This document shows positions 1 to 61,395 of a stretch of 64,000 nucleotides of DNA, piece after piece. The number at the start of each line of letters is the position of its first letter. Position 1 is the first letter of the stretch. The position numbers were made by a program, and so were the translations under genes. Origin of the DNA: Chloroflexaceae bacterium (GTDB lineage: Bacteria; Chloroflexota; Chloroflexia; Chloroflexales; Chloroflexaceae). The DNA lies in the NCBI GenBank assembly GCA_025057155.1, contig JANWYD010000019.1, positions 1-64,000 of the forward strand. Direction: 5' to 3'. The notes below the pieces were generated by a model. That model had not been told where the DNA came from, ran no database searches, and was given only the letters and a program-made list of their open reading frames with translations.

Positions 1-64
1 ACTCCACCGTGCCGGCGGAGAGGTCCACGTGGGCGATGCGATTGGCGAAGCCGCCGAGGGTCAT
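1..64 (-). CDS. Aldehyde ferredoxin oxidoreductase family protein, N-terminus only
   Basis: Only the first 21 codons are in the window; the gene continues past the left edge. The peptide begins MTLGGFANRIAHVDLSAGTV. A small-residue-rich start followed by a R-I-x-x-V-D-L-(S/T)-x-G-x-V-E stretch is the usual opening of tungsten-containing aldehyde:ferredoxin oxidoreductases. The ATG at 62-64 is supported by an AAGGAGG ribosome site a few bases upstream. AOR enzymes oxidise aldehydes to acids using a tungstopterin cofactor and a 4Fe-4S cluster, so the two MoeA genes at 9.4-12.8 kb fit it functionally. The call rests on a very short peptide. Confidence 0.55.
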   Translation of the reverse strand, partial: MTLGGFANRIAHVDLSAGTVE

Positions 65-936
65 AGGTGCCTCCTTGGGTAATGGTTGCTTGCCGAGAGT
101 GGATGACGAATGGTGTCCTCACCCTGCCCCCGGCCCCCTCCCTCGCCACCGGCGGTAGAGAGGGAGGGGGCGCCGCGCCGGGCGCGGCGGGGGCGGGTGA
201 GGAGCGGCAGCGCAACCTTCAAGGTTGCGCAACCTTGAGGGTTGCGGCCACGGATCAAACCGGTTTGCCCCGGGCCCCTGCCTGCCGGGAAACAAAAACA
301 CCCGGCGATGGGCGCCGCGGGAGCGCGGCCCTGTCCGAGGCGATGCTACAGAGCGAAAATGCGGAGCGTGGATCATCCTTCAACATCGAAGATCAGGTTG
401 CAGCAACGCAACAATACGATGACCAGCAGGGCCAGTCGGGCAGCGACTATCACCGTTCCCAGGCGGGGCGACTGGCGTGTATAGATGGTGTTTCGTAACG
501 GGAGCTTTTACTTATTGATTGTGCCACAGGACGGGAAACTTGTCCAGGGAACTTTCACATCCCGGCCTGCCCGACGGGACGGTTTGTGAGGCTATAGCCC
601 TCCCGGCAATTCTTCTCATCCCTGCCCGGGCCGGTGGGAAGGGTGTGGAGCAGCCAGGTTTCCCCATACCCTCAGGTGTAGGGGTTTTTGGGCGAGCAGG
701 GGTTTTCGGCATTCCAGTGCGCTTACGGTCCTCACCTCCCCGCCCCCCGCTCCCGCGCGCGGGAGCGGGGGGAGTTGGGCGTCCCGATGCCCCGGATGGC
801 GCATGCGACGCGAGGATGCGCCGGAAAACCCTGCACCTGAGAAGCTTCCCCATACCCCTGTCCAGGCCGGTTGGGGAGACAGGGGAAAACCCGGTGGCCC
901 CGGACTCCCGCCCGGCAAAGGCGCATTAAGACAACG
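65..936. other. Repeat-rich intergenic spacer
   Basis: No convincing gene is seen in these 870 bases. They contain a double palindrome built on CGCAACCTTCAAGGTTGCG near 210-245, a degenerate GGTTTCCCC repeat near 655-670, and a complete copy of the 171-175 bp mobile element described separately. Short open frames here are by-products of high GC. Confidence 0.7.
671..845. mobile_element. MITE-like element A, copy 1
   Basis: The element starts CTCAGGTGTAGGG and ends with the inverted form CCCTGCACCTGAG followed by AAGC. It is about 80-90% identical to 5061-5233. The 11-mer TTCCCCATACC lies immediately left (660-670) and immediately right (846-856), as expected of a target-site duplication. There is no coding capacity, so it would be a non-autonomous element. 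It sits inside a degenerate copy of the GGTTTCCCC repeat. Confidence 0.75.
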
Positions 937-2064
937 TCATAACGCTAACCCATAGAGCGCAATCGCATTCTGGCGGAGAATAGCCAGCGCCGCCGCCTCG
1001 GCCTCGGCGAGGGTCAGATCGCCGTCGGTGACGCAGCGGGTCAGCACGGCGGCCAGCGCCTCACGCCCGCAGCGCGCGCCGACATAGAAAGTCTCCGGGA
1101 TGAGGTGGGCGTCGGTGGAGAAGAGGATCTTGCTGATCGGGGCCAGTTCCAGGGCCGCGCTGGCCACCGCTTCCATCCCTGCGCGGCTGAGGTAGGGGAT
1201 GGCGAGCCCGAGGTCGAGGTACACGTTCGGATACACCGCGGCGAGGTAGCCGAGTTCGCGGGTGAAGGGATAGCCGGCGTGGAGGAGGACGACCGGCGCG
1301 GAACGCAGGTCGGCGCGTTCGAGGAGCGGCCGCAGGTGCAGCGGATTGGCCTCGCGCAGATCGAGGTCAGGGTCGCCGAAGCCGGTGTGGAACTGTACCG
1401 GCACGGCGTCGCGGGCGGCGATCTCCATCATAGTCCATACCAGCCAGTCATTCAGCGGTCTGGCGGCGATGCGCGCTGGCGCGCCGCGGACGACCGCCGC
1501 GCGCAACTCGGCGAAGGCCCGGCTGGCCGCCAGTGGGTCGGCGGGGGCCAGGCGCAGGCCGGTGCGGTAGGCCACGATGCTCTTGAAACCGACTACGGAA
1601 GGATCGCGCTGCTCCAGCCCGGCGCGAAAGGCGTCCACGAAGTCTTCCCAGGCGGAGATCTGTTCTAGCAACTGCGCGGCCAGGTGTTCGATGCGGATCA
1701 GGCGGAAGGTGGGCGCAAAGCGCTGATGCCACGGAGTGGGCATAATGCGATCGGGCATGAACCCGTCGTCGAGGATGAGGGCGGCGAACCCGCCGGCATC
1801 GAAGAGCCGCTGCGCCATCGCTTCGTAACCCAGTTGGTCGCGCAGCGCCTGCAGGCCCTCCAGCGAAGCTTCGCAGCCCAGCAGGTCGGCCAACTGGCGC
1901 ATGCTGCGCTTGAAAAACAACGTCTGCCGCACATGCCGGCTGACAATCGCCGCGTCGTAGCCCTCGGTAAATGCCGCCGCCAGCGAGAAGTCGTTCAGCG
2001 CCTCGGGGCGCAGCAGGTTGTGCGCGTGATGATCAACGATGGTCAGGTGATCGAGTTCCAACAT
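937..2064 (-). CDS. Amidohydrolase family protein, FluG N-terminal-domain type
   Basis: This 375-residue protein looks like an amidohydrolase-2 (PF04909) metal-dependent hydrolase. Visible hallmarks are D11-H-H-A-H15 on the first strand, a G-F-K-S segment with K161, QFHTG with H226, LLHAGYP with H262, and STDAH with D318. This is the usual order of metal ligands and catalytic Asp in a TIM-barrel amidohydrolase. It lies directly downstream of a glutamine-synthetase-like gene, and fungal/plant FluG proteins fuse exactly these two domains, so the pair probably acts on one gamma-glutamyl or amide intermediate. The ATG at 2064 is preferred over a TTG 15 bases upstream; neither has a strong ribosome site. 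The substrate is unknown. Confidence 0.85.
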   Translation of the reverse strand: MLELDHLTIVDHHAHNLLRPEALNDFSLAAAFTEGYDAAIVSRHVRQTLFFKRSMRQLADLLGCEASLEGLQALRDQLGYEAMAQRLFDAGGFAALILDDGFMPDRIMPTPWHQRFAPTFRLIRIEHLAAQLLEQISAWEDFVDAFRAGLEQRDPSVVGFKSIVAYRTGLRLAPADPLAASRAFAELRAAVVRGAPARIAARPLNDWLVWTMMEIAARDAVPVQFHTGFGDPDLDLREANPLHLRPLLERADLRSAPVVLLHAGYPFTRELGYLAAVYPNVYLDLGLAIPYLSRAGMEAVASAALELAPISKILFSTDAHLIPETFYVGARCGREALAAVLTRCVTDGDLTLAEAEAAALAILRQNAIALYGLAL

Positions 2065-2130
2065 AAGCTGAGGTGGCAATGCGCCAGGCAGGGAAGGGCG
2101 TGAGCGGGCATAGCCCGTCTACGAATAGGC

Positions 2131-2240
2131 ATAGTGTTCACATCGACCGAACACATTCGCACCGCAGAGGACGCGGAGGGCTTCAAAATGTTCATCCTCT
2201 CCGTTCCTCGGCGCGCTCTGCGGTACATCTGAACACGTAC
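2131..2240. repeat. 110-bp palindromic repeat, copy 1
   Basis: This segment is about 80% identical to 38403-38511. Both begin ATAGTGTTC and contain ACCGCAGAG...CTCTGCGGT as arms of an imperfect hairpin. Shorter relatives occur at 22627-22697 and 54645-54670. Here it fills the spacer between the amidohydrolase and the glutamine-synthetase-like gene. Confidence 0.7.
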
Positions 2241-2253
2241 ACGAATAGTCCTC

Positions 2254-3597
2254 TCAGTACCGCTCCAGGATCAGCCGCACTTCTTCCTCGTGCGACAGAT
2301 CCTTCATGGCCTGCCACTCGGCTCGGCGCACGGCCAGGTAGGAACGGGCCAGGTCGCCGCCCAGGGCCTCGAGCAGCACATCGTCGCGCTCCAGGGCGGC
2401 GATGGCCTCGCCGAGGGTCGCGGGCAGGGGCAGGATGCGCCGCTCAAGCCGCTCGGCTTCGGAAAGATCGGCGGGGTCACCCCGCACGGCATCGCCGAGG
2501 GGCAACTGGCGGTCAATGCCGTCAAGTCCTGCCGCGATCACCGCGCCGAGGGCGAGATAGGGATTGGAGGTGGCGTCGCAGGTCTTCAGTTCCACGTTGG
2601 TGACCGGCAGGCCGCTATCGGGCATGGGCACGCGCAGCGCGGCCTCGCGGTTGCCCATGCCCCAGCAGGTGAACGCGCCGCTCCAGAAGCGCGGGCGGAT
2701 GCGTTTGAAGCTGTTGGGAGAGGGGGTGGTCAGGGCCATCAGCGCCGGCAGATGCTCCAGAATGCCGGCCATGAAGGCGCGCATCGGCGCCGACAGGGCG
2801 CGGGGCTGGCCTGGCTCGGTGACGATGCTGGCGCCCTGGCGGGCCAGGCTGAGGTGCAGATGGGCGCCGTTGCCGGCTTTATCGGCGTAGATCTTCGGCG
2901 CGAAGGAAGCCAGCAGGCCGTGCTGCGCCGCGCAGGCCCTGACCGTCTCGCGGAAGACGATCTGCTGATCGGCGGCGCGCAACGCGTCGGCGTAGCGCAC
3001 TGGCAGCTCAAACTGGCCCGGCCCCGACTCGGCGTAGGTCATCTCCACCATCACGCCCTGGGCCTCCAGCGCTGACGTCATTGTGTTGATCACCTCCGCG
3101 GCTCCATCGAGGGCCGCGGTCTGGCAGAACACGGTGGCGTCAAACGGTGCAGGACCATCGGGGCCGGGGCGTAGCAGGGAGAATTCGTTCTCGAAGGCCG
3201 CGAAAACGCTCAGGTCGCGGGCGGCGGCGGCGGCAATCATGCGGCGGAGAAAGGAGCGCGGGCAGTGGGTCCAGGGCTGGTCGCCGGCGTAGATGTCGGT
3301 CAGCACGCGGGCGTGGCCGGGGGCATAGGGCAGCACGGCGAAGGTCGTCCAGTCCGCGCGCATGTGAACCTCGCCGTCGGGCGTCAGGCCGGTGTCGGGG
3401 GCCAGAGCGTCGTACATTACTGGCAGGGCCTGCTGCGCGGCAGCAATCCCGACCCCGTTGCCGGCCAGGTAGCTCTCGATCATCGTCGTCCGCACTGCCT
3501 TGGCGCGGATCACATTGGCGTTATCGCACCAGATGAAGCGCACAAAGCGCACCTGCTGGTTCTGGATCGCCGTCAGAATGCTTTGCACCGAAGTCAT
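2254..3597 (-). CDS. Glutamine synthetase family ligase (FluG C-terminal-domain type)
   Basis: The 447-residue protein contains the glutamine synthetase signature blocks in order: ENEF (136-139), ESGPGQFE (190-197), AGNGAHLHLS (241-250), NREAALRVP (316-324) and an ELKTCDATSNPYLAL block (336-350). It would form a gamma-glutamyl phosphate from glutamate and ATP and condense it with ammonia or an amine. Context (amidohydrolase downstream, amino-acid-type ABC transporter upstream) favours a gamma-glutamylamine synthetase role in amine or amino-acid catabolism over housekeeping nitrogen assimilation. ATG 3597 is chosen because the N-terminal SVQSILTAIQNQQVRFVRF matches the family start; the in-frame extension upstream is low-complexity spacer translation. 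Confidence 0.88.
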   Translation of the reverse strand: MTSVQSILTAIQNQQVRFVRFIWCDNANVIRAKAVRTTMIESYLAGNGVGIAAAQQALPVMYDALAPDTGLTPDGEVHMRADWTTFAVLPYAPGHARVLTDIYAGDQPWTHCPRSFLRRMIAAAAARDLSVFAAFENEFSLLRPGPDGPAPFDATVFCQTAALDGAAEVINTMTSALEAQGVMVEMTYAESGPGQFELPVRYADALRAADQQIVFRETVRACAAQHGLLASFAPKIYADKAGNGAHLHLSLARQGASIVTEPGQPRALSAPMRAFMAGILEHLPALMALTTPSPNSFKRIRPRFWSGAFTCWGMGNREAALRVPMPDSGLPVTNVELKTCDATSNPYLALGAVIAAGLDGIDRQLPLGDAVRGDPADLSEAERLERRILPLPATLGEAIAALERDDVLLEALGGDLARSYLAVRRAEWQAMKDLSHEEEVRLILERY

Positions 3598-3635
3598 GGC
3601 TCGCTGAGGTGAACGGAAGTTATATATAGAAGGGG

Positions 3636-3658
3636 CTGGGAGGGCAAAGCCCTCCCAG
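3636..3658. repeat. Perfect hairpin in the livK-glutamine synthetase spacer
   Basis: CTGGGAGGGC-AAA-GCCCTCCCAG is a 10-bp perfect stem with a 3-base loop, without a T-tract on either side. Related TGGGAGGGC/GCCCTCCC palindromes occur at about 11428-11450 and 11528-11550, so this is probably a dispersed REP-like unit. It lies just upstream of the glutamine-synthetase-like start codon. Confidence 0.6.
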
Positions 3659-3790
3659 AGGGATGCAATCCGGCTGCACATGATGTTCGGCGCGGTTTCA
3701 GGCAACCCGTTCCGGCGTCGGTTCGGCACCGAGTGCCTCCAGATGCGCCGCGCCCAATCCAAAATCTAAAATCGAAAATCCAACATCTCC

Positions 3791-4996
3791 CTAGGGCGTG
3801 ATCTCCTTGACGAACGTATACGCCCCATCCTGAACCTGAATAATCGTCACCGATTTGTCGGGCTTGCGTTGCCCCGGAGCATAGGTGATCTGCCCGGTGA
3901 CGGCGGCGAAGCCCTGGGTGGCGGCGAGGGCGTCGCGGATGGCTTTGGGATCGGCAGAGCCGGCGCGTTTGATCGCGTCGGCGATCAGGTTCAGCGTGTC
4001 GTAGCCGAGTACGGCGAAGGCATTCTCCGGCGGTTTGCCGTATTCCTGGGTGTAGGCCTGTACGAAGGCCTGCACCTTGGGGTCAACATTGTCCAGCGCG
4101 ACGTGGGTCGAGAAGAACACATTATCCGCAAGTTCGCCGGCTACCTCGGCGATCAGCGGGGTGTCGAAGCCATCGCCGGAAATGATCGGCATCTGCAGGC
4201 CGGCTTCACGGAACTGCCGGGTGGTGATGCCGGCTTCGTTGGGAATGGCCGAGATGAACAGCACGTCAGGCGGGGGATTGAGGGCCTGGACCTTGGCGAT
4301 CTGGGCCGAAAAGTCGGTGTCGCCAGAGCGATAGATGTCCTCGAGAACGATCTGGCCGCCCTTTTCGGTGAAGCGCTGCTTGAAGAAGGCCGCCAGCGCG
4401 GTGGTGAAGTCATAGGCCTGATCCACGAGCATGTAGGCCGTCTTCGCCTTCAGGTCGTCAATGGCGTAGTCGGCGATGGCGAAGGCCTGGGCGTCATCGC
4501 CGAAGGGGGCCATAAAGAAGAAATCGCCGATCTGCTCCGGCAGGGTCGGCAGCGTGGCGCCCGCAGTGACGAAGGGGATGCCGGCCTGCTGCGCGATAGG
4601 TCCGGCGGCCAGGGCAAAGGTCGAGTCGTTCAGACCGCCGATGGCGACGACCTTATGCACGTTGATCAGCTCCGAGGCGGCATTGGTCGTGGTCGTTTGA
4701 TCGGTCTTGCCGTCCACGGCGATCAGTTCGATCTGGCGTCCCAGCACCCCGCCTGCGGCGTTGATCTCCTTGACGGCCAGTTTCATGCCGTTTAGCCCGG
4801 GCGCGTCAATCGAGGACATGCCCCCGGTAATGCCGTAGAGAGCCCCGATCTTGATCGCTTCGGCTGCAGCGGCAGGCGAGGCAGCAGGCGAGGCGGCGGG
4901 GGCAGTGGGCTGGGCCGCAGGGGCGCCGCACGCGGCGGTGAGGATGATCAGAACGACGACGACCAGGGTGGAGAGCATCTGTTGTGTGGGTTTCAT
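3791..4996 (-). CDS. livK: Branched-chain amino-acid-type ABC transporter substrate-binding lipoprotein
   Basis: The 401-residue protein has a lipoprotein signal peptide: basic N-terminus MKPTQQ, a hydrophobic run, then lipobox TAAC with Cys23, followed by an Ala/Pro-rich linker. The mature part, from about IKIGALYGITGGMSSIDAPG, is a Leu/Ile/Val-binding (Peripla_BP_6) fold. It should capture the ligand outside the membrane and deliver it to the LivHM channel encoded upstream. ATG 4996 has AAGGTGAG upstream. It precedes the glutamine-synthetase-like and amidohydrolase genes on the same strand, suggesting that the ligand feeds that pathway. The true ligand (amino acid, amide or amine) cannot be read from sequence. 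Confidence 0.92.
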   Translation of the reverse strand: MKPTQQMLSTLVVVVLIILTAACGAPAAQPTAPAASPAASPAAAAEAIKIGALYGITGGMSSIDAPGLNGMKLAVKEINAAGGVLGRQIELIAVDGKTDQTTTTNAASELINVHKVVAIGGLNDSTFALAAGPIAQQAGIPFVTAGATLPTLPEQIGDFFFMAPFGDDAQAFAIADYAIDDLKAKTAYMLVDQAYDFTTALAAFFKQRFTEKGGQIVLEDIYRSGDTDFSAQIAKVQALNPPPDVLFISAIPNEAGITTRQFREAGLQMPIISGDGFDTPLIAEVAGELADNVFFSTHVALDNVDPKVQAFVQAYTQEYGKPPENAFAVLGYDTLNLIADAIKRAGSADPKAIRDALAATQGFAAVTGQITYAPGQRKPDKSVTIIQVQDGAYTFVKEITP

Positions 4997-5010
4997 AGCG
5001 CGACTCACCT

Positions 5011-5340
5011 TCAGTGGTCTGTGAACTAAGGTTTCTTGCATTGCTGCCCCCTCCCAACCTTCTCAGGCGGAGGGTTTTTCGAGCGAGAAGGGGTTTTCGG
5101 CATTCCAGCGCGCTTACGATCCTCACCCCGCGCCCCCCTCTCCCGCTTGCGGGAGAGGGGGGCGCGGGGCGTCCCGATGCCCCGGATAGCGCATGCGACG
5201 CGAGGATGCGCCGGAAAACCCTGCACCTGAGAACTCCCAACCTCCTCCCAACGGGGGGAGGAGCCGGACGCCCTCGCCCGGCGGGGGAGGGTTGGGGAAG
5301 GTGCGGGGGTTTAGCGAAAAAACTCCGTTCACAGACTATT
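5011..5340. mobile_element. Palindromic element B, copy 1, interrupted by element A
   Basis: The outer parts (5011-5060 and 5234-5340) together make a normal about 150-bp element B. It starts near AGTGGTCTGTGAAC and ends near GTTCACAGACTATT, with C-rich and G-rich arms able to pair. The centre is split by element A at 5061-5233. Other copies are at 15813, 21368, 55857, 57359 and 61248. Confidence 0.75.
5061..5233. mobile_element. MITE-like element A, copy 2, with 10-bp target-site duplication
   Basis: The 173-bp element has inverted ends TTCTCAGG / CCTGAGAA and the same interior as 671-845. The decamer CTCCCAACCT occurs at 5051-5060 and again at 5234-5243, directly flanking the element. Removing the element plus one decamer restores a standard element B. 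It lies between livK and its inferred promoter. Confidence 0.85.
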
Positions 5341-5479
5341 CGGATCGGTTCTGGATTGCGGATCGTGGATTGTGGATTGACTCGGGACGTCTCGACAGCG
5401 TAGACGGAACAGGCACGTTCGAACCCCTTCCCAGGCGTCTCCCCAGGCAGCCTTATCCGCTTTCCAGGAGAATAGCGTC

Positions 5480-5507
5480 ATTATAGGGATGTCTGTGGTT
5501 TTGGCAA
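5480..5507 (-). promoter_or_regulatory. Predicted sigma70 promoter for livK
   Basis: On the minus strand, TTGCCA (5502-5507) is followed after 16 bases by a perfect TATAAT (5480-5485). Transcription would start near 5473 and run into livK (start codon 4996). The roughly 475-base leader would contain element B and the nested element A. Confidence 0.55.
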
Positions 5508-5636
5508 GCGGGGCGCCCCGGGTCAGCTTCCCGCGCTGCACCGGTCTGGCGCGGGACGTGCGGGATGCACTGATGCGCCGCGCCCAGTAAGGCCGAAGCA
5601 TTCGCGCAGCCAATGCTTCGGCCTTACTCGGACGCG

Positions 5637-6662
5637 CTACGATGCCCCTTCACTCTCGACGGCGGGGAGCGGCTCGCGTCGGCGCAGCAGGTCGCTCAGT
5701 TCATGCCCGCCGAGCAAGCCCTGGGGGCGAAAGATCATCACCAGCAGCATGAGCAGGGCGATCACGATCTGGCTCAGGCCGTACAGCGGCCTGCCGCCGA
5801 CGGCCAGGCTGGTCTCGATGCCGCGCAGCCACTCTGGCAACAGGGTCATCAACACGCCGCCGAGGACAGCCCCGGTAATGCTGCCGGCGCCCCCGATTAC
5901 CACCATGGCGACGACGTTGAAGGTGATGGCGAACGAAAACGATGCCGGAGCGATGGCGGTGATCAGGTGCGCCCAGAGGGCCCCGGCGGTTCCGGCGAAA
6001 AAGGCCCCGACCACGAAGGCCAGCAGGCGCGTCGGAAAGACGCGGATGCCGCGACAGGCCGCCGCCAGTTCGTCTTCGCGCACGGCGAGCATGGCCCGCC
6101 CAAACGGCGAGCGCACCAGGCGCCAGATGATGATCACGCTCACCAGCATCCAGCCGTAGGCCCAGAGGAGCGAGGTGAAGGCGGGCAGGCCATTGAGGCC
6201 GCGCGCGCCGCGGGTCACCGTCTGCCAGTTGAGCGCCACCACCTGCACGATGACCATCAGGCCCAGCGTGGCCACCGATAGATAGTGTCCGCGCAGCCGC
6301 AACACCGGAATGCCGACCACGAAGGCCGCCAGCGCGGCCAGGGCGCCCCCGGCGAGCAGGGCCAGCGCAAAGGGCAGTTCCGCCCGAGCCAGCCAGGATG
6401 GCAGGTCCGGCAGGGCGACCAGCTTCATACTGGCAGGCATCGTCAGCAGGGCGGAGGCGTAGGCGCCGATAGCCATGAAAGCGGCATGACCGAGCGATAC
6501 ATCACCGCTGAAGCCGTTGGTCAGGCTCAGACTGACGGCGAGGATCACGTTGATCGCCACCACTGCCAGCACCCGCTGGTAATAATCGTTGAGCCGGTAC
6601 TCAGCGAGCACGACCAGCGCCGCGCCCAGGCCGAGGGCCAGCCAGCCATACACGGGCCTCAT
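5637..6662 (-). CDS. livM: Branched-chain amino-acid-type ABC transporter permease
   Basis: This 341-residue polytopic membrane protein shows the LivM-type permease core, for example the FSGDVSLGHAAFMAIGAYASALL stretch in the N-terminal half, a RSPFGRAMLAVREDELAAACRGI-like coupling loop that should contact the ATPases, and AGSITGAVLGG near the end. Start ATG 6662 overlaps the livH stop codon by 4 bases (ATGA), so translation is probably coupled. The reading frame extends upstream inside livH but is clearly a shadow there. It forms the translocation channel with LivH. Confidence 0.92.
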   Translation of the reverse strand: MRPVYGWLALGLGAALVVLAEYRLNDYYQRVLAVVAINVILAVSLSLTNGFSGDVSLGHAAFMAIGAYASALLTMPASMKLVALPDLPSWLARAELPFALALLAGGALAALAAFVVGIPVLRLRGHYLSVATLGLMVIVQVVALNWQTVTRGARGLNGLPAFTSLLWAYGWMLVSVIIIWRLVRSPFGRAMLAVREDELAAACRGIRVFPTRLLAFVVGAFFAGTAGALWAHLITAIAPASFSFAITFNVVAMVVIGGAGSITGAVLGGVLMTLLPEWLRGIETSLAVGGRPLYGLSQIVIALLMLLVMIFRPQGLLGGHELSDLLRRREPLPAVESEGAS

Positions 6663-7549
6663 GCGCGCCGTCCCTCCTCCAGGCCAAACAGCCCCGCCGG
6701 ACGCACCAGCAGAATCGCCAGCAGCAGCACGAACACAAACGCATCGCGGTAGCCAGAGAGGGCCGGGGGCGCAAAGGCGACAAAGAAGACCTCGGCGAAG
6801 CCAAGGAGATACCCGCCTACCATGGCCCCCGGAATGCTGCCAACGCCGCCGATCACCGCAGCGACGAAAGCCTTGAGGCCCGGCACGAAGCCCGTAAAGG
6901 GGTCCACCAGGCCAAACTTGCCGCTCCAGAGCACGCCGGCGACGCCGGCGAGGGCGGCGCTCACGCCGAAGGCCACCGCGATCACCCGGTTCACGTTCAC
7001 GCCCATCAGGTGCGCGGTCTGCACCCGCTCGCTGCACGCGCGCATGGCAATCCCGATCGTCGTGTATTTGACAAACAGGCTCAGAAGCGCCATCAAGGCG
7101 ATCGAGAGGAGCAAGATCACACCATCAATTGGCGCAATGGTCAACCCGGCCCACTCGACGCGGCGGGTCAGTTCGGCGGGCAGGCGCAGCGGGCGCGGCT
7201 GGGCTGTCAGGGCCATGGTTGCGCTGTTCTGGATCAGCGAACTGATGGCCAGGGAGGTGATCAGCATAGCCACTTCCCGCGAGCCGCGCAGGGGGCGATA
7301 GGCCAGCCGTTCAATGATGATGCCGATCGCGCCAGCGACGATCATGGCGAAGAGCAACGCCGACCAGACGGGCAGAACCAGGGCGCTCAGGGCCGCCAGG
7401 GCCACGTAGGCCCCCACGGTCATCATATCGCCGTGGGCGAAGTTGATCAGCCGCAGGATGCCGTAGACGATCGTCAGGCCAATGGCAACCAGGGCGTAAA
7501 TGCTCCCAAGGTTGAGGGCGTTGACGGTTTGTTGGAGGAGGTAGGTCAT
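6659..7549 (-). CDS. livH: Branched-chain amino-acid-type ABC transporter permease
   Basis: This 296-residue membrane protein begins MTYLLQQTVNALNLGSIYAL, the classical LivH opening, continues with GLTIVYGILRLINFAHGD, and carries the ACSERVQTAHLMGVN cytoplasmic coupling segment. About eight hydrophobic helices are seen. ATG 7549 has a GGGAGG ribosome site. Its stop overlaps livM. Together with LivM it should form the inner-membrane pore of the cluster's amino-acid-type importer. Confidence 0.93.
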   Translation of the reverse strand: MTYLLQQTVNALNLGSIYALVAIGLTIVYGILRLINFAHGDMMTVGAYVALAALSALVLPVWSALLFAMIVAGAIGIIIERLAYRPLRGSREVAMLITSLAISSLIQNSATMALTAQPRPLRLPAELTRRVEWAGLTIAPIDGVILLLSIALMALLSLFVKYTTIGIAMRACSERVQTAHLMGVNVNRVIAVAFGVSAALAGVAGVLWSGKFGLVDPFTGFVPGLKAFVAAVIGGVGSIPGAMVGGYLLGFAEVFFVAFAPPALSGYRDAFVFVLLLAILLVRPAGLFGLEEGRRA

Positions 7550-7601
7550 TGGCGGCCTCCCACCCGCATCATCGGCGGGTCTCCCCGAGACGCTATATCC
7601 G

Positions 7602-7643
7602 ACAATCCACAATCCACAATCCACAATCCACAATCCACAATCC
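7602..7643. repeat. Tandem heptamer repeat
   Basis: Six perfect tandem copies of ACAATCC fill the spacer between livF and livH. Looser relatives with AATCC/AAATC units occur at 3756-3783, 43899-43921 and about 57545-57570, and in inverse orientation at about 5350-5380. Such a tract could vary in length by slippage. Confidence 0.9.
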
Positions 7644-7669
7644 AAAATCACCTTAAACCTGCCTGGCGT

Positions 7670-8374
7670 CTACGCCCCCAGATAGGCCGCTCTGACCCGC
7701 GGATCGTCCAGGAGCGCAGGGGCGGGGCCGCTGAGAGTAATGGTTCCGGTTTCGAGAACATAGGCCCGATCGGCCAGGCGCAGGGCCTGCCAGGCGTTCT
7801 GTTCAACCAGCAGGACGGTCATCCCTTCGCGGCGCAACGCGGCGATGACCTGGAAGATGCGTTCGACCACCAGCGGCGCCAGACCCAGTGACGGTTCATC
7901 GAGGAGGAGCAGGCGCGGGGCGCTCATGATCGAGCGCCCCAGGGCCAGCATCTGCTGTTCGCCGCCGCTCAGCAGCCCGGCGATCTGGCGCTGCCGTTCG
8001 CCAAGGATGGGGAACAGGCTCAGCACCCGTTCCAGATCGCGGGCCACGGCGTCGCGGTCGCGCCGGTGGCCGGCGGCCAGGCGCAGGTTCTCGGCGACAG
8101 TCAGCCGGGCGAAGATCTGCCGCCCTTCGGGACAGTGCACCAGTCCGCGGCGCACAATCTCATGCGGCGCCAGGCGGGTGATCTCCGCACCCTCGAAGCT
8201 GATCCGGCCGCGTCTGGGGCGCAGCAGGCCGGAAATGGCGCTCAGGGCGGTGGTTTTGCCGGCGCCGTTGCTGCCGATCAGGGCCACGATTTCGCCCGGC
8301 TGCACCTCGAGCGAGATGCCCTTCAAAGCGTCAACGCGACCATAGGCCACGTGGAGATCGCGCACCTGGAGCAT
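7670..8374 (-). CDS. livF: Branched-chain amino-acid-type ABC transporter ATP-binding protein
   Basis: The 234-residue ATPase has Walker A GSNGAGKTT (34-42), signature LLSGGEQQMLALGRS, Walker B LLLLDEPSLGLAP and a switch His after VLLVEQN. Length and order match LivF. ATG 8374 is preferred; a TTG at 8389 would add five residues. It lies 1 base after the livG stop, so the genes are translationally coupled. It powers import through LivHM together with LivG. Confidence 0.93.
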   Translation of the reverse strand: MLQVRDLHVAYGRVDALKGISLEVQPGEIVALIGSNGAGKTTALSAISGLLRPRRGRISFEGAEITRLAPHEIVRRGLVHCPEGRQIFARLTVAENLRLAAGHRRDRDAVARDLERVLSLFPILGERQRQIAGLLSGGEQQMLALGRSIMSAPRLLLLDEPSLGLAPLVVERIFQVIAALRREGMTVLLVEQNAWQALRLADRAYVLETGTITLSGPAPALLDDPRVRAAYLGA

Positions 8375-9191: not shown

Positions 9192-9280
9192 GACGACGAT
9201 CCTCTGCTTTCCAACGGAGTCTTCTGCTACCTGGTTGCGCTGCGTGGCTTCTTGAGGTACACGTCAGGGGAGGTGGCGTA

Positions 9281-9297
9281 GGGAAACCAGGTTTCCT
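9281..9297. repeat. REP-like palindrome C
   Basis: GGGAAACCAGGTTTCC is one member of a dispersed family with consensus GGGGAAACCNGGTTTCCCC. Clear copies are also seen at 11472-11490, 25756-25774, 29647-29665, 34174-34191, 36403-36421, about 36479-36497 and 38569-38587, with degenerate ones near 655, 11374, 43563 and 56047. All lie between genes, usually beside a CAGGGGCG-type stretch. Confidence 0.75.
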
Positions 9298-9400
9298 CAC
9301 ACCCCTGCCCGCGGGAAGGCTCGCCCCTCCCATCGCCGATTGGAGCGGGGGAGACCCGGTTTCCTACACCCCTGCCCAATCGGAAGGTCCCACACCTGCC

Positions 9401-11347: not shown

Positions 11348-11471
11348 AGCCAGCCTCTTCACCGGGGCGCGAGGAAACCTGGCTTCCCCGCTCTCTTCAG
11401 CCGCCTGTGGCGCCGTCAGGATGTTCCTGGGAGGGCCACACCCTCCCGGCCGCTCTCCGAGGCCGGGGCGC

Positions 11472-11490
11472 GGGGAAACCCGGTTTCCCC
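11472..11490. repeat. REP-like palindrome C, perfect copy
   Basis: GGGGAAACCCGGTTTCCCC forms a 9-bp perfect palindrome around one central base. A degenerate copy lies at 11374-11389, and a TGGGAGGGC/GCCCTCCC unit follows each, so the spacer between the two moeA genes carries a duplicated repeat block of about 100 bases. Confidence 0.8.
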
Positions 11491-11576
11491 GCACCCTTCA
11501 GCCGCCTGTGGCGCCGTCAGGATGTTCCTGGGAGGGCCACGCCCTCCCGATCCGTTCCATCGGGCAGGGATGACAA

Positions 11577-15814: not shown

Positions 15815-16034
15815 GTAGTCTGTGAACACAGTTTCCTGGCATTTCCGCCCCCCTCCCAACTGGGCGCGCCGCCGCGATCCGCGGCGCGCGGCTGGAGAAC
15901 GCAGTTTCCTGGCATTTCCGCCCCCCTCCCACCCTTCCCCCCGTCAGGTGGAGGCGCCGGACTCTTTCCCCCAGCGGGGGAGGGTTGGGGAGGGGGGCGC
16001 AGTTACCGAAAAAACTCCGTTCACAAAGTAGTGA
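15813..16034. mobile_element. Palindromic element B, copy 2, with internal duplication
   Basis: The element begins AGTAGTCTGTGAAC immediately after the msrA stop and ends CGTTCACAAAGTAGTGAG. It is longer than other copies because the segment GCAGTTTCCTGGCATTTCC is repeated around a GC-rich insert (about 15855-15900). It may act as a transcription terminator for msrA. Confidence 0.65.
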
Positions 16035-18207: not shown

Positions 18208-18341
18208 ATTGACCAGGTGTGGTATACTATGGATGAGCCTACAGCGCATATTGCAACCGTATGTGCGCTGACCTCATTGACCAGGTGTGGTATACTATGG
18301 ATGAGCCTACAGCGCATATTGCAACCGTATGTGCGCTGACC
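18208..18341. repeat. Perfect 67-bp direct duplication carrying a promoter
   Basis: Two adjacent identical 67-base copies begin ATTGACCAGG and ATTGACCAGG (18208 and 18275). Each contains an extended -10, TGGTATACT (18220-18228 and 18287-18295), reading rightward. Each copy ends in GTGCGCTGACCTC, which is inverted relative to GAGGTCAGCGCAC at 18185-18197. Confidence 0.85.
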
Positions 18342-18409
18342 TCTATCAAAGCGCTGCTTTCCGCTTGGAGCCGGGGCAGCGTTTTGATCTGTATATTGGA
18401 TAGTACCAT

Positions 18410-25542: not shown

Positions 25543-25863
25543 ACGTACAGGATTTGAACTATGGCGCTGCCACCACCGGGCAGCGCGAGGCGGCGCCAGA
25601 GTGCGACAGACTGTAGTATATATGCTCTGCTATACCCAGGTGTAACCGCTGTGCAATCGCGCCTGGCGGGCGGGGGTGTGGGGACAACCCGGGATTTCCC
25701 TCCCATCGCTCCCCTCCGGGGTTGGGTCGTCTGAGCCGCCGACAGGCGGGGATGTGGGGAAACCTGGTTTCCCCACGTTCTTTCCACTGGCGTCGGGTCG
25801 CCTGAGCCGCCGACGGGCGGGGACGTGGGGGAAACCTTGTTTTCCTACGTTGCCAGACGCCCG
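25543..25863. other. Repeat-filled spacer
   Basis: There is no gene. It holds a perfect palindrome C copy at 25756-25774, GGGGAAACCTGGTTTCCCC, two degenerate copies near 25690 and 25832, and a repeated GCCGCCGACAGGCGGGGA block (about 25735-25752 and 25810-25825), indicating local duplication of about 75 bases. Confidence 0.65.
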
Positions 25864-29548: not shown

Positions 29549-29646
29549 GGTGCTCACCTCCTTTCAGAGCCAGGCCATACAGGTTAGGAGGGGCGAAGCC
29601 CTCGGATAAGCGTTGCTTTCGTAAACGGAACCGGTTCGAGAGAGGC

Positions 29647-29665
29647 GGGGAAACCCGGTTTCCCC
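29647..29665. repeat. REP-like palindrome C in the leuS leader
   Basis: GGGGAAACCCGGTTTCCCC is a perfect copy lying between the extended -10 of leuS and the leader ORF, so it would be transcribed as a hairpin. Confidence 0.75.
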
Positions 29666-29723
29666 GCGCCCCGCCTGGTGGGGGTTTGACCCCGCCCCTT
29701 GATCGCGTGAACATGCTCTGCGT

Positions 29724-33928: not shown

Positions 33929-34277
33929 TGGCGACCTCTGCTAACCAAAGGCATTACAATGTTCTCGCGAGGACCCCGCGCGCAACCCGGAGGGTTGCGT
34001 TACCGTTTGTTCCCGAACGGGCTGCGGCATGGGGGCAACCCGATTCACCATACGCATTTCGGGCCTGCGCCGGCTCATTGTAACACGAAAACGTGTATTT
34101 TGCGGTCTTATGCTTCCGAGCGCGCACCTGGAAAGGTCGCTCCGCCATCTGTTTCCAGACGAGCGGGGGCATCGGGAAACCTGGTTTCCCCGCGCCCCTC
34201 GGGGCTGTAGCGGGTATGCTAGAGGACTCGCGCGGGCACGGAGTGAGGGGGCGTGGTGAGACCAGATTTCCCGAATC
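33929..34277. other. Repeat-filled spacer with a promoter
   Basis: It contains a CGCAACCCGGAGGGTTGCG palindrome (33979-33997), a palindrome C copy (34174-34191) and, on the minus strand, TGTTACAAT (34077-34085), an extended -10 about 145 bases before the UV endonuclease start. No gene is seen. Confidence 0.55.
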
Positions 34278-36339: not shown

Positions 36340-36402
36340 TGGGCTTTTCAGTTTGGACAAGATGTAGAGGTGACGGAAAACCGTCCCTCCAGGCAGGGGC
36401 GC

Positions 36403-36497
36403 GGGGAAACCCGGTTTCCCCGCTCTCTTCCAACCTGCGCCGGGGCGCCCGGCGCTCATCTGTCAGGCAGGGGAAGGGGGGAAACCCGGTTTCTCCC
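36403..36497. repeat. Two REP-like palindrome C copies between divergent genes
   Basis: GGGGAAACCCGGTTTCCCC occurs at 36403-36421, and GGGAAACCCGGTTTCTCC at about 36479-36497. They lie back-to-back in the rph-selB divergent spacer, 25 bases before the selB start. Confidence 0.75.
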
Positions 36498-55856: not shown

Positions 55857-56001
55857 AGTAGTTTGTAAACAAAGTTTTTCGCTATACCCCCGCCCCCTCC
55901 CCAACCCTCCCCCGCTGGGGGAGGGAGCCCGGCGCCTCCCCCCAACGGGGGGAGGTTGGGAGGGGGCGGAAATGCAAGGAAACTTAGTTTACAGACCGCT
56001 C
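55857..56001. mobile_element. Palindromic element B, copy 4
   Basis: The element begins CAGTAGTTTGTAAAC and ends GTTTACAGACCGCTC, with pairing arms around CCTCCCCCGCTGGGGGAGG and a second pair near CTCCCCCCAACGGGGGGAG. It is the best preserved copy and lies between the HEAT protein and CoaBC. Confidence 0.75.
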
Positions 56002-57358: not shown

Positions 57359-57505
57359 TTATTCGTTTGTGAACGAAGTTTCCTTGCATGTCTGGCCCTC
57401 TCCCAGCCTCTCTTCGTTGGGGGGAGGAGCCAGGCGCCCTTTGCCGCTGAGGGGGGCTGGGAAAGGGATGCGAGTTTAGCGAAAAACTTCGTTCACAACC
57501 TGCTT
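57359..57505. mobile_element. Palindromic element B, copy 5
   Basis: The element begins TTATTCGTTTGTGAACGAAG and ends CTTCGTTCACAACCTGCTTATT. It lies 9 bases upstream of the coaBC start codon and downstream of a predicted promoter, so it would be transcribed in the coaBC leader. Confidence 0.7.
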
Positions 57506-61247: not shown

Positions 61248-61395
61248 GAGTGGTCTGTAAAGTGAGTTTCGTGGCATTTCCGCCCCCCTCCCAGCCTCCC
61301 CCCGTTGGGGGGAGGAGCCGGACTCCCTCCCCCGCCGGGGGAGGGTTGGGAAGGGGGGCGGAAATGCAAGGAAACGTAGTTCGCAGACTACTGAG
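61248..61395. mobile_element. Palindromic element B, copy 6
   Basis: The element begins GAGTGGTCTGTAAAG and ends CGCAGACTACTGAG. The interior CCTCCCCCCGTTGGGGGGAGG and CCTCCCCCGCCGGGGGAGG form two stem tips of a cruciform-like fold. It separates convergent genes ending at 61205 and 61439. Confidence 0.75.

Follow-up and report, generated by a model that had tools for sequence, protein, structure and literature searches.

The window analysed here (the whole stretch of 64,000 nucleotides) is part of contig C19 of a Chloroflexales genome (G000, 5.13 Mb in 189 contigs). At 5010-5343 it contains two short mobile elements, one inserted into the other (Table 1). The inserted element belongs to a family of approximately 175 bp (MITE 1), the interrupted one to a family of approximately 140 bp (MITE 2). 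The genomes compared were those of three sister species (G001, G002 and G003) and further genomes (G009, G036 and G048), among which G009 and G048 represent other Chloroflexales genera.

Table 1. Repeat elements and flanking duplications in the window
Feature	Position	Strand	Remarks
MITE 1 copy 1	669-843	+	family-standard ends; beside and within GGGGAAACCNGGTTTCCCC-type repeat
Copy 1, left 11-bp duplication	658-668	+	GTTTCCCCATA; family-standard boundary
Copy 1, right 11-bp duplication	844-854	+	GCTTCCCCATA; one mismatch to GTTTCCCCATA
MITE 2 host, interrupted by MITE 1	5015-5338	+	ends TGGTCTGTGAAC / GTTCACAGACTA; absent from G003
MITE 2 host, left 5-bp target duplication	5010-5014	+	TTCAG; empty site ...CCTTCAGATCG... 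in G003
MITE 2 host, right 5-bp target duplication	5339-5343	+	TTCGG; one mismatch to left TTCAG
MITE 1 copy 2 (insert, 173 bp)	5061-5233	+	ends TCTCAGG...CCTGAGAA; start may be 5060 by family-standard ends
Copy 2, left target duplication	5051-5060	+	CTCCCAACCT; read in sequence
Copy 2, right target duplication	5234-5243	+	CTCCCAACCT; read in sequence
MITE 1 central GC-rich palindrome	5126-5169	.	self-complementary; arm changes paired between copies
Further MITE 2 copies with 5-bp duplications	15816-16030, 55859-55998, 57363-57502, 61251-61390
GGGGAAACCNGGTTTCCCC palindrome copies	9268-9307, 11359-11398, 11460-11499, 25744-25783, 29635-29674, 34161-34200, 36391-36430

An earlier note, made from the sequence alone, had described a 173-bp insert with inverted ends interrupting a second element. 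The ends and the coordinates were reproduced, and the host was recognized as a MITE 2 copy. The decamer is indeed repeated exactly on both sides, but the "clean" 10-bp duplication of the note has a length of 9-10 bp in this copy (the T at 5060 belongs to the decamer and to TTCTCAGG alike), and the length characteristic of the family is 11 bp. As the note had proposed, excision of the insert and one repeat restores the host: subtraction of the 173-bp insert and one decamer from the 324 bp leaves 141 bp, which aligned end to end with other MITE 2 copies. In G003 the corresponding site reads ...GACTCCCCTTCAGATCGATTTTGG..., with the whole nested element and one TTCRG missing. Since the nest is absent from G003 and the restored host aligns over its full length with its relatives, the order of events is empty site, then MITE 2, then MITE 1. 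Precise loss of the nest in G003 is possible in principle as an alternative to insertion, but it is less simple. The nested insertion at this locus is real and well supported.

MITE 2 elements have the ends TRGTYTGTGAAC and a length of 129-140 bp, except for two longer copies, the interrupted one and a 215-bp copy at 15816-16030. Nine copies were found in the window plus a further 280 kb of G000 sequence, and eight of them are flanked by 5-bp duplications that differ in one base at most. These ends and 5-bp duplications point to a transposase different from that of MITE 1.

The second MITE 1 element of the window, copy 1, had been placed at 671-845 with an exact 11-mer on both sides. The duplication is real, but the boundary was two bases off, and the 11-mer TTCCCCATACC represents this duplication in a reading shifted by 2 bp. 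The copy does sit inside another repeat, as claimed. An empty site was sought in G003, where this intergenic stretch is too diverged for alignment. The repeat at copy 1 is of a third type, the palindrome GGGGAAACCNGGTTTCCCC, of which the window contains at least seven copies. Elsewhere in the window, at 18208-18343, 68 bp are duplicated perfectly in tandem.

MITE 1 is represented by at least 101 distinct complete copies in G000 (5.1 Mb), with a modal length of approximately 175 bp including the outer bases. These copies were taken from searched and fetched loci; we estimate that 25-30 more lie outside this set, giving approximately 130 in total. The copies share terminal inverted repeats of 19-20 bp (YTCTCAGGTGYAGGGTTTT; ends of this type can also be written CTCTCAGGTGYAGGGTTTTT). 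A search with 27 bases from the right end gave 92 matches with up to three mismatches and the 17-base end CTCAGGTGYAGGGTTTT gave 257 matches with up to two mismatches, whereas the reversed patterns used as controls gave none. The consensus derived from 96 full-size copies has 174 bases, starting with CTCTCAGGTGTAGGGTTTTTCGAGCGAG and finishing with CCGGAAAACCCTACACCTGAGAA. The outer bases are CT or TT on the left in 91 and AA on the right in 95 of the 101 copies. An element of this length is too short to encode a transposase. In the central palindrome the two arms changed together between copies: at one pair T-A occurs in 68 copies and G-C in 8, at another C-G in 55 and A-T in 12. Template switching or selection on the hairpin could lie behind these paired changes.

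The 11-bp segments flanking MITE 1 at a fixed position were identical in 25 copies and differed by one mismatch in 22 and by two in 15. Thus, 62 of the 101 copies have a duplication with at most two mismatches, and the remaining 39 have none at this stringency in the standard position. A duplication score of at least 10 was reached by 39% of the real copies compared with 0.5% of flank-swapped pairs; with free placement, a score of at least 8 was reached by 59% of the copies versus 1.3% when the flanks were swapped between copies. The duplicated 11-mers vary from copy to copy, indicating that they do not belong to the element consensus. The note had named the absence of duplications or matching ends in other copies, and decamers belonging to the consensus, as findings that would speak against a MITE family; with the copies collected and their ends aligned, other copies showed both features, and the decamers lie outside the consensus. 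Empty sites were also found. For the copy at C4:170342, the joined flanks minus one repeat gave gap-free alignments with both G003 (86% over 464 bases) and G002 (84% over 487 bases). Duplications of unique sequence, such as GACGGCGGATG, were found together with a clean empty site.

Divergence of the copies from the consensus averages 7.7% and ranges from 2.3 to 14%, identity reaches 97.1% in the closest pair, and the still-recognizable duplications contain 10% mismatches per site. These values speak for an old family rather than a currently active one. At present MITE 1 is probably dormant in G000. The description of the family in the note as transposition-competent could not be upheld for the present, given this divergence and the failure to find an intact partner in G000.

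A transposase gene with matching inverted ends, which the note had suggested looking for, was present in two relatives. In G009, an element of 1371 bp has the 17-base end without mismatch (17/17) on both sides and encodes a 375-amino-acid transposase, which also occurs in identical form on contigs of Oscillochloris sp. RM1_1_4. The G048 element (1358 bp), at the same locus also in Roseiflexus sp. SKYB12, has end matches of 17/17 and 16/17, is flanked by a 12-bp duplication without mismatch, and carries an interrupted transposase gene. With regard to the duplications of about 8-13 bp expected of IS4 elements, the 12 bp in G048 and the 11 bp of MITE 1 stand beside G009 and several related IS copies, for which no clear duplication was obtained. 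The transposase of the candidate partner matches the Pfam family DDE_Tnp_1 (PF01609), and the IS4 signature Y-2-R-3-E-6-K was recognized by eye in aligned relatives (e.g. YGLRAWIECSYKDMR/K). The G009 protein carries A in place of the second catalytic D of its relatives. Because the score with the NCBIfam IS4 model NF033591 (86.7 bits) was below the cut-off of 152, the candidate partner is called IS4-type, with no subgroup. A PDB sequence search yielded no relevant transposase. In the draft assemblies of the own genus, which could conceal an intact copy, only fragments of the partner transposase were found, and the only DDE_Tnp_1 match of G000 carries an internal stop. An IS4 fragment beside a MITE end on contig C7 of G000 was considered as the lost partner and rejected: its far end is similar to the termini of the element in G036 (CTTTCGGGGGTAGGTATTTT), and the MITE more probably inserted into or next to an unrelated IS. 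On contig C83 of G048 (Roseiflexus sp. SKYB12), an IS4-type element at 655-2630 is bordered by further ends of the same type, which suggests that this IS lies within a MITE. G001 contains another type of MITE (loci L204, L209, L214 and L219) that shares the MITE 1 ends but has a different interior and frequently lies at the end of a contig. Such short elements sharing the ends fit mobilization in trans.

Genes called by a simple coding score place 89 of the 101 MITE 1 insertions in intergenic DNA, which makes up approximately 17% of the sequence. Repeat matches were sought in 344 kb of the genome, a background that includes both window copies and thus carries a small bias. A match was found for 56% of 62 reconstructed empty sites, for 22% of random intergenic points and for 2% of coding points, the controls not being matched for GC. 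Three named repeat types held 35% of the 62 sites versus 6.7% of the random intergenic points, and the enrichment was 2.5-fold for repeats overall and 5-8-fold for these three types. Folding scores were stronger at insertion sites. The preference for repeats is therefore real but partial: the statement that the family uses repeats as landing sites captured this preference but went too far, as many insertions fall outside recognized repeats. The target consensus of IS231-like elements is GGG(N5)CCC. Some MITE 1 sites fit such a target (GGGCGCAGCCC), but the overall profile is merely GC-rich and this candidate was rejected.

The reading that we favour, with a probability of roughly 0.8, is that MITE 1 is a non-autonomous DNA transposon of approximately 175 bp moved in trans by an IS4-type DDE transposase, and that the nest at 5010-5343 arose in two steps. 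The transposase would come from a full-length insertion sequence that shares the MITE 1 ends, MITE 1 would be joined to target cuts staggered by about one helical turn (11 bp), and gap filling would yield the 11-bp duplication. MITE 2 would have entered the intergenic space in the first step, and MITE 1 would have entered MITE 2 in the second. The strong central palindrome and the intergenic, palindrome-rich surroundings might suggest a quite different origin: the elements would be palindromes of the REP/BIME type, disseminated through recombination or by a REP-associated (Y1) transposase, and the short direct repeats would belong to the host repeat by coincidence. REP/BIME units are 20-40-bp palindromes devoid of a target duplication, whereas MITE 1 measures approximately 175 bp and has terminal inverted repeats of 19-20 bp and a duplication of fixed 11-bp length with a sequence that varies from site to site, and in relatives its empty sites align without gaps. 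On the evidence of the duplications and empty sites such an origin was rejected, and we regard it as extremely improbable. It is also unlikely, if less so, that a different transposase mobilized MITE 1 and that the IS4-type elements of the relatives came to share its ends by convergence or capture. The failure to find an intact IS4-type partner in the own genus would agree with this, as would the fact that both matching elements, damaged or suspect as they are, belong to other genera. The near-perfect end matches in G009 and G048 argue against it, as do duplications of 11-12 bp, as in IS4, similar ends on related IS4-type elements of the order, and the different G001 MITEs with the same ends.

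In the favoured reading, moved in trans by the IS4-type enzyme, MITE 1 would prefer GC-rich, often palindromic intergenic repeats, perhaps partly for their sequence and partly as harmless landing places. The enrichment in repeats might instead reflect nothing more than avoidance of genes and a bias towards GC-rich DNA, neither repeats nor palindromes being targeted as such. This account is compatible with the favoured reading, and we consider it possible, though at less than even odds. Insertion sites are indeed richer in GC than intergenic DNA (0.664 versus 0.593). However, the enrichment was already measured against intergenic points and is 5-8-fold for the three named types, and one position, e.g. 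CTCCCCAACCC, was hit repeatedly by several independent copies. It seems doubtful, to a degree close to that of a different transposase and slightly beyond it, that the transposase recognizes palindromic targets in folded form (hairpin or cruciform), so that intergenic repeats would breed nested repeats and the paired palindrome changes would be kept because the palindrome serves mobility or acts as a landing pad.

The candidate partner resembles the IS4 family (De Palmenaer et al. 2008, PMC2266710) in its DDE and YREK motifs, single transposase gene, length of approximately 1.36 kb and, where a duplication was clear, duplications of 10-12 bp; duplications of about one helix turn are known for that family (PMC2266710). 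Its ends (CTCTCAGGTG...) fit no listed subgroup, as IS10 and ISPepr1 have 5'-CT ends but duplications of 7-9 bp (PMC2266710), and the window, in contrast to the IS4 family, holds only a non-autonomous derivative. ISRm22, an IS4 family member of Sinorhizobium meliloti (Tobes and Pareja 2006, PMC1525189), likewise lands in extragenic palindromic repeats and shows imperfect duplications in some copies. All of its copies are in REPs and it has a 6-bp repeat (PMC1525189), whereas MITE 1 has 11 bp and only part of its copies are in repeats. ERIC and MITEAba12 (PMC10969869) are similar as short, non-coding, high-copy elements with inverted ends, present in tens to hundreds of copies; they differ in ends and partner, and MITE 1 has clear 11-bp duplications and the nested arrangement. 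In the literature we found no MITE of this kind described in Chloroflexales, and positions 1-8000 of the window gave no match in Rfam.

As a bacterial mobile repeat, MITE 1 is of an ordinary kind. Because insertion of IS4-type elements into palindromic repeats has already been described, the general picture is unchanged. The locus provides a clean example of how bacterial intergenic repeats stack, in which the order can be read, both layers having target duplications and a sister species having the empty site. It also links a high-copy MITE family of Chloroflexales to a poorly described group of IS4-type transposases.
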